From: Planifilum fulgidum
Lineage (GTDB): Bacteria; Bacillota; Bacilli; Thermoactinomycetales; DSM-44946
Direction of reading: 5' to 3'
Length of the DNA: 64,000 nucleotides
Assembly: GCF_900113175.1 (NCBI RefSeq)
Contig: NZ_FOOK01000014.1
Coordinates: forward strand, 1 to 64,000
The position numbers and the translations under genes were made by a program. The notes under the pieces were generated by a model, which made no database searches, was not told where the DNA came from, and saw only the letters and a program-made list of their open reading frames with translations. Positions 11,748-16,328 of this stretch are shown here, piece by piece (position 1 is the first letter of the stretch; every line of letters begins with the position of its first letter).

Positions 11748-12425
11748 TCATCCGCTGGCGAAAACACGAAAGACCAAGTAAACGACAAGCAGGATCAGCA
11801 CAAAACCGTTCACCAGCCTGCCGGCCCGCCGCATCCGGGGGATGAGGCCGGGAAACCATTGACTTCCGGACATTCCGAAAAAAGCCGTGGGAATCGCCCG
11901 GCTGAAACCGTAAAGGGCGCCGAAGAGAAGGCCGTGGGCCGGGTCTTTGAAAAAGCCGAGATACAGATAGAGGAGATGGAAGGTGATGTGCGGGATGTAC
12001 GTAAAAAGGCCCGCGCCCAGGATCAGCCCCCACACCGCCATGTTCCGCATCGGCGGCCCCGAGACCCACGTGTGCGGAACCTGCCATCGGTTTTGCGGCA
12101 CTTTCAGGCGGATTCCGTTCCACTCATGAAGGATGTAGGGGGCGGCCAGCAGGGCGAGGAACCCCCCCTTGATCGCCGGCGGCAGCCAGAAGGAAAGCAA
12201 ATACACGATGGACGTGTACAAAAATCCGGCCGCGGCGCCGGATGCGGCGGCCGTTCCGCCGTAGACGAGGGAACGAAAAGCCGCTTCCCGCTTTTTTACC
12301 CTCTCCCCGAGAGGGGCGACCGAAAGGGTCGCATTGATCCCTCAGACCGTTCCGACGGCGGTGATTCCCGCGGTGAAGGCCAGGAGAGCCGGCAGGAGGT
12401 TTTCCGGATGAAGCCAATCGTTCAT
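11748..12425 (-). pseudogene. polytopic membrane protein gene interrupted by in-frame UGA at codon 28
   Basis: Reading on the minus strand from ATG 12425 (GAGGGGG at good spacing) gives 27 residues starting MNDWLHPENLLPALLAF, then TGA at 12342-12344. The same frame continues without another stop to 11748, for 225 codons in all. The protein would have about four or five membrane helices, including LYTSIVYLLSFWLPP and the C-terminal FVLILLVVYLVFRV. It starts 10 bases after the Cys-rich gene stop, so it is the last gene of the Mau-like unit. A TTG at 12221 could restart translation. Reasonable readings are a nonsense mutation or sequencing error (for example CGA or TGC to TGA), a restart, or selenocysteine. 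A resemblance of the first helix to MauF/CcdA-type proteins is only a guess; no other cysteine is present. Confidence 0.7.
12299..12332 (-). other. two hairpins just downstream of the in-frame UGA
   Basis: Nine bases after the UGA (minus strand) comes a perfect stem GCGACC/GGTCGC with a CTTTC loop (12316-12332), followed at once by CCCTCTC/GAGAGGG. Bacterial SECIS elements sit in this position, but the loop lacks the GGUCU-type consensus known from E. coli fdhF. Confidence 0.45.
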
Positions 12426-12435
12426 GCTTACCCCC

Positions 12436-12831
12436 TCATTTCCGGAAGGCCCACTTGCATCCGCAAGTATGGCCGTCTTTGATGCAATCGCAACAGACAA
12501 AGTAGTGGGGACAATCTTCGGAGGTGGCGCACCAGCAGCCCGTGCTTCGGTACAACCCTTTCCAAACGGTGTAGCCGCTGGGGCACCTTAAGCCGCTGCC
12601 GTGGTCCGGACAGCCGGAACAGTATCTCCCGCCCGGCGGATGGCAGTCGCACGCCCTCCACCAGGTTTCACACCACTGGGTGGAGGCGGAGACGGAGGCG
12701 GGGTTTCGGGCGATTTCCATCAGTTTAAAGAAGGCCGCCTTCAGGGATTTCTTGAGAAGGGCGCTCTGATCCGACGTCCGGGCCCACTGTTCCGCCGACC
12801 GTCTGAAGAGGGAATCGATTGCCCGGATCAC
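12436..12831 (-). CDS. cysteine-rich protein resembling methylamine dehydrogenase light chain (MauA-like)
   Basis: A 131-residue protein whose last 78 residues carry 14 cysteines (54, 61, 63, 71, 74, 83, 99, 101, 107, 113, 114, 116, 123, 125). The spacing, with a CPSG motif, then a CC pair, then CxC, parallels the disulfide-rich MauA beta subunit as I recall it, but the C-terminal segment that carries the second tryptophan of the TTQ cofactor is missing. The N-terminal 45 residues are basic and helix-prone, with an RR pair, somewhat like the unusual MauA leader but without a canonical twin-arginine motif. The start is GTG 12831, inside the mauD-like stop (GTGA) and preceded by AGGAGGG. It is encoded after MauE- and MauD-like proteins, which in mau clusters help export and oxidise MauA. 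Confidence 0.72.
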   Translation of the reverse strand: MIRAIDSLFRRSAEQWARTSDQSALLKKSLKAAFFKLMEIARNPASVSASTQWCETWWRACDCHPPGGRYCSGCPDHGSGLRCPSGYTVWKGLYRSTGCWCATSEDCPHYFVCCDCIKDGHTCGCKWAFRK

Positions 12832-13412
12832 CGGAGACCCTCCTGACTGTCGCCGGTTTGAAGGGAGTCTTCCAGTTTTCCCAGCAACTCCTCGATGTGT
12901 TCTTTTCCGTTGCACAGCCCCTTGCCCCTCACGATTCCCTTCTCATCGAGGATGAAGGCGAAGGGCGTCACGCGGACGCGGAAATCCCGCAAAAAATGAT
13001 CCCTCCGGTCCCAGACGATCCGCCCGTGAATCTCCCTTTCCCGCACAAACGCCTCCATTTTCTCCCGGTCGCCGACTCCCATCAGGACGAAGTTCACCTT
13101 CTCCCGGTGGTCCAGGCAGCATTGGTTCCATTCGGGGATCAGGTCCCTGCAGGCGTCGCAATTCGGTGAAATGAAGGCCAGGAGGGTCGGCCTCCCTTCC
13201 AGGTCTTTGTGTGTGACCGCGCGGGTGGTGGAAAAATCTTCCCCCACAAATTCCGGAATATAGTCTCCGATCGGGATGCCGTCGCGGGAGATGGCATCGG
13301 CGGAATTGAGATAGATTTCGCCGAACTGGCGGAAGAGAACGACCAGGGCAAAGATGACCAGCAGCTGGACGATCCACAGCAGGATATTGGAGTAAAGAAG
13401 AAACGTTTCCAT
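12828..13412 (-). CDS. MauD-like membrane-anchored thioredoxin-fold protein
   Basis: A 194-residue protein with an N-terminal membrane anchor (about residues 8-28) and an extracytoplasmic redoxin domain. It has FVGEDFSTT, the active-site motif SPNCDACRDLIPEW (Cys85, Cys88) and the cis-Pro region VRVTPFAFI. MauD proteins carry a CPxC-type motif in the same SPxCxxC setting and are needed for correct disulfide formation in the MADH light chain. Upstream is a MauE-like gene, and the Cys-rich gene starts within its stop codon, so the three are one translational unit. A general thiol oxidase or reductase of the ResA/TlpA class is the alternative. Confidence 0.85.
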   Translation of the reverse strand: METFLLYSNILLWIVQLLVIFALVVLFRQFGEIYLNSADAISRDGIPIGDYIPEFVGEDFSTTRAVTHKDLEGRPTLLAFISPNCDACRDLIPEWNQCCLDHREKVNFVLMGVGDREKMEAFVREREIHGRIVWDRRDHFLRDFRVRVTPFAFILDEKGIVRGKGLCNGKEHIEELLGKLEDSLQTGDSQEGLR

Positions 13413-13466
13413 CGATCTCGCTCCTCAGCGCATTTTCAAGGGCGGGCGCAGGGGGAGTCCTCCCGC

Positions 13467-13991
13467 TCAGCGGTTTTTCAATCGGTCCATCGCCTTCGCG
13501 TGATGGGTCCAGACGGCCTGGGCCGCCAACAGGCATGCGGTCAGGAAGCTTCCGAAAAAAAAGCTTTCGGGTGAAGGACGGACAGGGTGGGAGAAGGAGC
13601 GGATCAGCACGGTGATCGCCGCAGCCGTCAGGATCCCGATTTTAATCAGGGTGAACCGGTCCGCCCGGGCGTCGAGAAATTTGCCGTAACATCCGCAGCG
13701 GACGGTTTTTTTGGCGCGCAGGACGGCGGAGACGGCCCAGGCGAAGCCGAAGAGGAGAAGGAGCAGGATCAGGGAGCCGCAAAGGGCGGTCTTCGGATGA
13801 CACAGCAGCGCGGCTCCGGAAAGTTCCGCGAAGGGAAGGAGACTCCCCAACACCCTGGCGAGAGGGCCGGGCAAAACGCCGTACGCGGCCGTCAGCTCCC
13901 GGAAGGCCGAAAGGTGCAGGAGCTTGGGCGCGGCGGAGGCGATAAACAGAGTGCACAAAAACATGGCGAGAATATCGGCGAGCATTTGCAT
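13467..13991 (-). CDS. MauE/DoxX-family redox-associated membrane protein
   Basis: A 174-residue integral membrane protein with about four helices and the family pattern APKLLHLSAFRELTAAYGVLP near the N-terminus, PFAELSGAALL in helix 2 and VRCGCYGKF (Cys99, Cys101) on a loop before helix 4. MauE is thought to supply oxidising or reducing equivalents for MauA folding together with MauD. The ATG at 13991 has GGAAAGGAAAAG upstream. It opens the four-gene minus-strand unit MauE, MauD, Cys-rich protein, membrane protein. Confidence 0.85.
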   Translation of the reverse strand: MQMLADILAMFLCTLFIASAAPKLLHLSAFRELTAAYGVLPGPLARVLGSLLPFAELSGAALLCHPKTALCGSLILLLLLFGFAWAVSAVLRAKKTVRCGCYGKFLDARADRFTLIKIGILTAAAITVLIRSFSHPVRPSPESFFFGSFLTACLLAAQAVWTHHAKAMDRLKNR

Positions 13992-14691: not shown

Positions 14692-16224
14692 TCATCGCCC
14701 CAAAGCTCCGCCGCCGGTCGCCGCCGGATCCCCCGCCCTCCTCTGGGCGTAACGGGCCAGCACCGGGTGGTGCCGCTTCAGCGCCGACAGCAGCTCCTCG
14801 AAGACGGCCCGAATATCCCACTGGGCCTCGGGTGAAGTGCGCAGGTTGATCAAATGGTATAGTTCCCACAGGGTGACCGTCGCCGTCACCTGCCGATGAT
14901 GGGCGTTGGTCACGCAGTAGGGGGCCGCCGCGGGGCATATCTCCCGGATTTTCCTGTGGATTTCCGCCGCCTGTTCCACCAGTCTGCAAAAGGGATCGGA
15001 CAGGCCGGCGTCCCGGACATGGGGAGGGATCGTATAGCCCAGGTCGGTGGTGGGGAGCCCCCAGGTGAAGTGGGTGCGGCGGTTGTGGCGAAGGAGCTGG
15101 TGCCAGTTGGCTTCGGAGATCTTCAGTTCCAGCCGGTAGACCAGGTGCTGGAAGGCGTCCAAGGGATTGTCGAAGAAGCGCAGCCGCTTCAGGGCGTCGT
15201 CAACCAGCCGCTCTTTCTCCTCCCGGCTGAGGGCGCGGGCCTTTGCTTCCGCTTCCTCGTAGGAGAGGGAGGAGTGTTCGATCCAGAGCGAAACGGTCAA
15301 TTGCGTGAGCGCCTCCTCGTAATCCGGGAGGCGGAGGAACCGGGCGGAGGGGCCGCCGGCGGACTCCGGACAGGCGCGAGCCTCCGTTTCCGTTTCTTTC
15401 ATCTGTTTTTCCAGGCTTTCGCGCGTATCCATAATGTAGGGGCTGGGTTTTACATGTTTGAGAAGGGTGGGAATCACCCGTCCGATTTCCCGCTCCATCT
15501 CCCGGGCCAGCCGCCGGCATTCCGGGTACCGGCTGGACAGGAGGCGGATCAGGGTGTCCCTGAGGGCGCGGCCGTTGCCGGTCATCCCCAGGTTGGTCAG
15601 GGTGGCCAGCGTCAGGACATAGCGGGCGTCCTCGAAGGCCGTCTTTTCCACCCGGAGGTGGAAGCGCTTCTCCGATTCTCCGTCACGGCGGGGCAGGCGG
15701 TCCGTCAGGTAACCGATCAGACCGGCCAGCAGCCCTTCGTAGGTGTCGTAGGCTTTCTCCTGCAGGTCGCAATACAGGCTTTTGGCTTCCGGATCATTTT
15801 CCAGTTCCGGCGGCAGGTACCAGTCGCCGCGGCGGGGCCGCTGGTATCGCTGGCTGTATTCGGTGAAGCTGTTGAAGGAATTGGCCAGCTCCAGCTCGGC
15901 GGATGCGAGCCGGCTGATCCGCTCGATGCCGATGTGGGCCACCGCGTGCTCCGCCACGCTGCTGTGGCCGTATCCCACCACCCATTTCTCGTGAAAGCGG
16001 GCCGCCTTCTCCGAATAGAAGGATGCGATCCCGCCGGCGGCGTCGCCGACGGCCAGTTCGTCGTCCTCGAGCAGTTTTTTCAGGTTGTCCCGGAAGCTGA
16101 GGGGGCTTCGGCTGACATAGGCGAAAATGACGGCGATCACTTCTTCGGGAAGGTTGTATATGGTGTAAACATTGCGATCCAGGTTGGATACGTATCGGGT
16201 CAGGTCGATCTCCTGGCCTTTCAC
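14692..16224 (-). CDS. double-length FAD-dependent thymidylate synthase (ThyX) family protein
   Basis: A 510-residue protein, about twice the size of a classical ThyX, which makes dTMP using FAD and methylenetetrahydrofolate. Both halves look ThyX-like. The first has GYGHSSVAEHAVAHIGIERISR and SFTEYSQRYQ but no RHR triad. The second has SEANWHQLLRHNRRTHFT, keeping an RHxR-type motif, and DLGYTIPPHV. The ThyX signature RHRxxSxxxxSxR is therefore split or degenerate. The start is GTG 16224 with GGGAGG 7 bases upstream; a GTG at 16233 overlaps that site. It may be a catalytic ThyX variant or a ThyX-derived protein with another role. Confidence 0.8.
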   Translation of the reverse strand: MKGQEIDLTRYVSNLDRNVYTIYNLPEEVIAVIFAYVSRSPLSFRDNLKKLLEDDELAVGDAAGGIASFYSEKAARFHEKWVVGYGHSSVAEHAVAHIGIERISRLASAELELANSFNSFTEYSQRYQRPRRGDWYLPPELENDPEAKSLYCDLQEKAYDTYEGLLAGLIGYLTDRLPRRDGESEKRFHLRVEKTAFEDARYVLTLATLTNLGMTGNGRALRDTLIRLLSSRYPECRRLAREMEREIGRVIPTLLKHVKPSPYIMDTRESLEKQMKETETEARACPESAGGPSARFLRLPDYEEALTQLTVSLWIEHSSLSYEEAEAKARALSREEKERLVDDALKRLRFFDNPLDAFQHLVYRLELKISEANWHQLLRHNRRTHFTWGLPTTDLGYTIPPHVRDAGLSDPFCRLVEQAAEIHRKIREICPAAAPYCVTNAHHRQVTATVTLWELYHLINLRTSPEAQWDIRAVFEELLSALKRHHPVLARYAQRRAGDPAATGGGALGR

Positions 16225-16328
16225 CGGGGCCACCTCCCACGTTGTGCTTCTCTCATTCTACCAAGTTGCGGGACCGCCGGAAAGCGCGGAACCGATTTCG
16301 CAAAGGTGCATAAAATCGATTTATTTCC

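Follow-up and report, generated by a model that had tools for sequence, protein, structure and literature searches.

The four-gene locus of Planifilum fulgidum

The window, a stretch of 64,000 nucleotides of contig NZ_FOOK01000014.1 of Planifilum fulgidum, carries a compact cassette of four genes on its minus strand (Table 1). All four were found where an earlier note on this DNA had placed them. In the last one, a polytopic membrane protein gene, that note had overlooked an in-frame TGA, and it had missed the predicted selenocysteine (Sec), the likeness to MauF and the tatA/tatC genes that belong to the cluster in some relatives. The GTG start of the Cys-rich gene overlaps the stop codon of the mauD-like gene in the window.

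Table 1. Genes and RNA features of the cassette on contig NZ_FOOK01000014.1
Feature	Position	Strand	Description
mauE-like gene	13467..13991	(-)	174 aa, membrane protein, CGCYG motif; PF07291
mauD-like gene	12828..13412	(-)	194 aa, N-anchored thioredoxin-fold protein, CDAC active site; TIGR02661, AhpC-TSA
Cys-rich MauA-like gene	12436..12831	(-)	131 aa, 14 Cys (12 family-conserved), GTG start
mauF-like gene, predicted selenoprotein	11748..12425	(-)	225 aa when read through; predicted Sec at codon 28
In-frame UGA, predicted selenocysteine codon	12342..12344	(-)	Same codon in all distinct family loci
SECIS hairpin 1 (GCGACC-CUUUC-GGUCGC)	12316..12332	(-)	Covariation at paired synonymous sites
SECIS hairpin 2, apical loop GGG	12299..12315	(-)	33 nt from UGA; covariation; fold -11.2 kcal/mol

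The MauE-like protein matched PF07291 with 81.2 bits (E 1e-22), above the curated cut-off of 27. The MauD-like protein matched AhpC-TSA (E 4e-11) and TIGR02661 (82.9 bits, E 1.9e-23), the latter below the equivalog cut-off of 188.6. Both earlier assignments were thereby borne out, the second product being MauD-like and not a MauD equivalog. MauB and MauG had been reported as missing from the 64 kb, and this holds for the whole genome (99.99% complete), in which a search by profile for mauB or mauG elsewhere, proposed in the same note, returned none. In that genome PF06433, PF03150 and PF02975 gave no match, and the absences of PF02975 and PF06433 are the weaker ones because no control genome passed their cut-off. 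The composition of the cassette is mauE-mauD-'mauA'-mauF(Sec), with neither mauB nor mauG. Adjoining it, positions 14692-16233 encode a protein of 513 aa that matches Thy1/ThyX (PF02511) twice, a flavin-dependent thymidylate-synthase-like protein in tandem form.

The combination of MauE, MauD, Cys-rich protein and membrane protein recurs in 22 Bacilli genomes (21 distinct loci), and because of this recurrence the arrangement is not due to chance. MauE is present in all 22 cassettes. The order E, D, A-like, which had been described as conserved, is constant in 21 of the 22, the exception being one genome (G586) in which the Cys-rich gene comes last, behind inserted Tat genes. When the Cys-rich protein was used as a single query against the genome contigs, no match was obtained; a profile of the membrane protein succeeded instead, leading to relatives in Bacillus, Paenibacillus, Robertmurraya, Cytobacillus, Lentibacillus, Salipaludibacillus and Evansella, and also matching Melghirimyces, Kroppenstedtia and Marinithermofilum. 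Within the order, relatives of the Cys-rich protein are found in seven of 42 genomes. A weak second match in one genome (G023, L008/L015) overlaps other open frames and looks spurious. In Kroppenstedtia guangzhouensis (L010:8560-8988), the Cys-rich protein ends in PTDVAAAG... where the family has a conserved DCGC end, as if frameshifted, and has 11 Cys instead of 12.

Comparison of neighbours showed that only the four cassette genes are broadly conserved across loci, and beyond them no conserved neighbour was found except tatC/tatA in a subset of loci. ABC transporter matches near the loci were judged to be paralogy. The conserved partner for which the earlier note had suggested a search among relatives was not found, apart from tatC/tatA in six loci.

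The in-frame UGA and the selenocysteine machinery

The UGA occupies the identical codon of the membrane-protein gene in 21 of 21 distinct loci, and neither UAA, UAG nor a Cys form of the codon occurs there. In the seven cassette genomes of the order, the next gene has its TGA at the same codon without exception, in the context AGxTxxxTx-UGA-GxNxTL. A codon-independent profile search of 399 genomes of the class gave nine matches, all with TGA and none with Cys, and two additional loci agree on the TGA. The peptide is conserved on both sides of the UGA across loci, an upstream start is present throughout, and most loci have a clear ribosome-binding site. The aligned loci show a single conserved protein that continues through the UGA. 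On their concordance, in 21 cases, a pseudogene or a sequencing error was rejected as the cause of the TGA. A simple reading of UGA as Trp was rejected on sequence grounds, because the aligned residue of MauF is Cys and tRNA-Sec is present in these genomes.

Two hairpins follow the UGA on its 3' side, with compensatory changes in 10 of 13 pairs. The hairpin cells are paired in 89.5%, against 77% in shuffles, and the covariation score was reached by none of 500 shuffles. In hairpin 2, all seven pairs have compensatory changes and 94% of cells are paired. The partners in pairs 12-24 and 15-21, counted after the UGA, are third codon positions, and they switch in step (G-C, A-U, U-A and C-G, U-A, G-C, respectively), with one locus as the exception in each; protein constraint gives no reason for such changes. 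Published rules for bacterial SECIS elements give G at the first two loop positions, a loop of 3-9 nt, a stem of 4-16 bp, a distance of 16-37 nt from the UGA and an MFE of at most -7.5 (PMC13188914). Hairpin 2 agrees with them on loop, stem and spacing. Its 3-nt apical loop begins with GG in 21 of 21 loci (GGU in 14) and lies 33 nt from the UGA, and the energy of the rules is reached in 17 of 19 loci, the window among them. Taken across the aligned loci, this shows a UGA followed by a covarying bacterial SECIS element.

The machinery for selenocysteine accompanies the cassette. ARAGORN detected tRNA-Sec (tca) in each of the seven genomes of the order that have the cassette. SelB is above its cut-off in the same seven of seven, compared with four of the 35 others (11 of 42 overall), a co-occurrence with a hypergeometric probability of 1.2e-5, uncorrected for kinship. 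Among further cassette genomes SelB was found in 12 of 13, making 19 of 20 tested, and one cassette-bearing MAG has no SelB match over the cut-off. Four genomes of the order (G012, G025, G027 and G001) have SelB without the cassette, three of them also with full-length tRNA-Sec. Since SelB is there and the cassette is not, Sec is probably used for something else in these four.

From the reading frame, the hairpins and the machinery, we strongly infer that the UGA is decoded as Sec, and the membrane-protein gene very probably encodes a new selenoprotein. No member of its family was matched by the NCBIfam selenoprotein models (June 2026), and none of the 119 prokaryotic selenoprotein families catalogued in 2026 is related to MauF, MauE, MauD or MauA (PMC13188914); the families of Haft and Tolstoy (2025) and of Haft and Gwadz (2023) were compared through the table of that catalogue and NCBIfam. 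Because it lies outside the catalogue and these models, the protein appears to form a new selenoprotein family. It has been hidden from annotation because the predicted selenocysteine codon is taken for a stop, and automatic annotation will probably cut its gene short.

Comparison of the two unassigned proteins with MauF and MauA

No family of Pfam or NCBIfam covers the Sec membrane protein, and PF13386 gave no match above its cut-off. Compared by hhalign with MauF from five mau clusters, the protein aligned over 171 columns with an E of 6.3e-7 and a score of 51.7, whereas the best of 60 column-shuffled controls reached 22.8. In this alignment, Sec28 falls on the invariant Cys of the MauF motif WSPCGYSS (Cys79). 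Judged by profile, the protein is a distant homologue of MauF and not MauF, because Sec replaces the Cys of this motif. With a MauF homologue as the fourth protein, the gene set becomes mauFEDA.

The AlphaFold2 model of the Sec protein (pLDDT 90.6, pTM 0.87) would place Sec at the break that separates helix 7-25 from helix 27-36. Foldseek ranked the electron transporter CcdA (5vkv) first, with a probability of 0.91 but a weak E of 0.09, and VIA-align gave no standout fold. The likeness to CcdA/DsbD thus consists of this top match and of a redox residue that is modelled beside a helix break; we also take the SPCG of MauF to resemble the SPC motif of CcdA. The difference is that CcdA/DsbD have a Cys pair, whereas the family has one invariant redox residue, the Sec/Cys, and no second invariant Cys, so that a two-Cys shuttle of the CcdA type cannot work unchanged.

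The Cys-rich protein has a strongly conserved domain of 80-90 residues, with 12 family-conserved Cys and 16 invariant columns among 19 members, and W53 and W100 are invariant in all 19. It had been described as resembling the light chain of methylamine dehydrogenase (MADH), with PF02975 and the MauA fold as the checks to be made. PF02975 matched none of the 19 members (the window and 18 relatives). A profile-profile comparison with MauA scored 35.1, above the shuffled maximum of 19.8; this signal is confined to the leader and the N-terminal half, and the mature domains alone did not exceed shuffled controls. Profile searches of the PDB returned noise and no MauA. No MauA was among the Foldseek or VIA-align matches of the structural model (pLDDT 77.6), where an absence is no proof. 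None of the 19 members has the segment with MauA W108, and conservation is lacking at the W57 position. The earlier resemblance is left with a weak, profile-level link between the Cys-rich protein and MauA. The absence of profile and structural similarity that the note had named as refuting it is borne out only in half. Because PF02975 fails and the segment of the second TTQ Trp is absent, the family is by its sequence not a TTQ amine dehydrogenase light chain; it is a separate, predicted disulfide-stabilised protein.

The leader of the Cys-rich protein varies together with the Tat genes. In six loci, tatC/tatA lie in the same cluster, namely in Bacillus FJAT-27445, two Paenibacillus, Robertmurraya, Lentibacillus and G586 (L081 in G586, and L044, L045, L046, L048 and L054). 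Among the testable loci, these six and no others have a hydrophobic Cys-rich leader with the motif R[SK]xF[LI]K. The genes of G586 run tatC-mauE-mauD-mauF(Sec)-tatA-tatC-Cys. A hydrophobic leader with this motif is also found in Cytobacillus, where the contig breaks off within mauE. In Marinithermofilum and Melghirimyces the motif persists, the hydrophobic stretch is weaker and local Tat genes are absent. In the remaining loci, including the window, the leaders have decayed and lost the hydrophobic core, local Tat genes are absent, and the membrane redox partners are kept. The earlier proposal of a reduced Mau-derived system that makes a different secreted, disulfide-rich product stands as to the reduced system and the different product, while its secretion is only putative in the window, where the leader is not hydrophobic.

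A proposed selenol relay and its place among known systems

We consider it likely that this is a self-contained, Mau-derived cassette with a Sec-containing MauF-type protein, forming a membrane thiol/selenol relay dedicated to one disulfide-rich client. Sec28, lying in a modelled CcdA/DsbD-like fold at the kink that follows the first membrane helix, would exchange electrons with the anchored thioredoxin MauD (CxxC), and MauE (CGCYG) would be a further membrane redox partner. Together, Sec-MauF, MauD and MauE may oxidise or isomerise the six disulfides expected in the Cys-rich protein. Where tatC/tatA are local, the Cys-rich protein would be carried across the membrane by Tat; this route is proposed only for the tatC/tatA form, as the leader of the window form has decayed. 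Such a cassette would amount to a compact natural folding system for just one disulfide-rich protein, supplied in some species with Tat genes of its own, and would have Mau maturation factors at work without any amine dehydrogenase.

The Cys-rich protein could also be the precursor of a RiPP-like modified peptide, with MauE, MauD and MauF as the modification enzymes, given that MauE (once with MauD) stands beside Cys-rich precursors without other mau genes in Streptomyces (decRiPPter, PMC7794033). This is unlikely, since the product is a conserved domain, unlike a variable core peptide, and the surroundings of its gene show no conserved protease, immunity gene or dedicated ABC exporter. Somewhat less probable is a metal- or metalloid-binding factor served by the Sec protein as a transporter or metal-delivery component. 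Its 12 conserved Cys would suit this function, and many selenoproteins are linked to metals and transport according to a 2026 review (PMC13188914); on the other hand, the partners MauE and MauD belong to thiol redox chemistry, MauF and CcdA, to which the Sec protein is closest, serve in maturation or electron transfer, and no metal resistance genes are conserved nearby. A Cys-rich product that bears a new protein-derived cofactor without MauB/MauG, for example from W53 and W100 and with participation of the Sec MauF homologue, is very doubtful; if true, the cassette would represent a selenium-dependent relative of TTQ biogenesis that stands alone.

A cryptic amine dehydrogenase, with the Cys-rich protein as a degenerate TTQ subunit and the large subunit and MauG encoded elsewhere, has been largely refuted and is highly improbable. 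The accessory genes are the same as in Paracoccus mauF-B-E-D-A, and the MauF-like UGA gene of Thermomicrobium roseum stands beside two PF02975 proteins in which both TTQ Trp are retained; yet the genome has neither PF06433 nor PF03150, no partner gene is conserved, and the losses at W108 and W57 noted above run through the family. Least credible is a true stop or a decayed gene, with a downstream start or a pseudogene leaving a cassette of MauE/MauD and the Cys-rich protein only: gene callers would split the gene at the UGA, and the open frame beyond it offers a TTG at 12221 in the window, the first start codon available there, but this leaves unexplained the SECIS covariation, the co-occurring Sec machinery, the ribosome-binding site before the upstream start of most loci and a UGA fixed in 21 distinct loci of many genera with both flanks conserved, and the invariant G-x-N-x-T directly after the UGA cannot come from the downstream starts of the window.

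The preferred reading, a dedicated selenol relay, can be set beside several known systems. Small dedicated operons that combine selenoproteins with redox partners are also known as Tso and SAO (multi-selenoprotein operons of Haft and colleagues, given in PMC13188914); the present family differs in matching no NCBIfam selenoprotein model. Streptomyces candidates from decRiPPter have MauE/MauD beside precursors with at least 8 Cys and without mauB/G, and differ in that no selenoprotein or MauF was reported there (PMC7794033). By analogy, they may be taken as a partial precedent for Mau maturation without amine dehydrogenase.

The mau cluster of Paracoccus denitrificans reads mauF-mauB-mauE-mauD-mauA-amicyanin-mauJ-mauG. 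It shares with the cassette MauE followed by MauD before a small Cys-rich protein, a MauF homologue and, on the Cys-rich protein, a leader that resembles the Tat leader of MauA, and the 12 family-conserved Cys equal the Cys number of MauA. In contrast to it, the cassette has no mauB, mauG, amicyanin or mauJ, its mauF comes after rather than before the other genes, Sec replaces the MauF Cys, and its small protein is without the W108 segment.

On the megaplasmid of T. roseum (L060), a MauE domain, MauD and a MauF-like gene with an in-frame UGA at the same motif are found, reading ALWSP-UGA-GYS where Paracoccus has TWSPCGYS. The difference is that the small proteins there genuinely belong to PF02975 and have both TTQ Trp; they lie next to hypothetical proteins of propeller-like type, to one of which the MauE domain is fused. 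The deposited CDS of the MauF-like gene (NC_011961.1, L060:8684-9349) starts after the TGA. SelB was not found on the plasmid, which was searched alone. Coming from another phylum, this UGA supports an exchange of Sec and Cys in the MauF lineage, as far as the aligned motifs indicate. A Sec placed exactly on the invariant Cys of MauF argues that this residue does redox chemistry, and the finding makes MauF directly testable.
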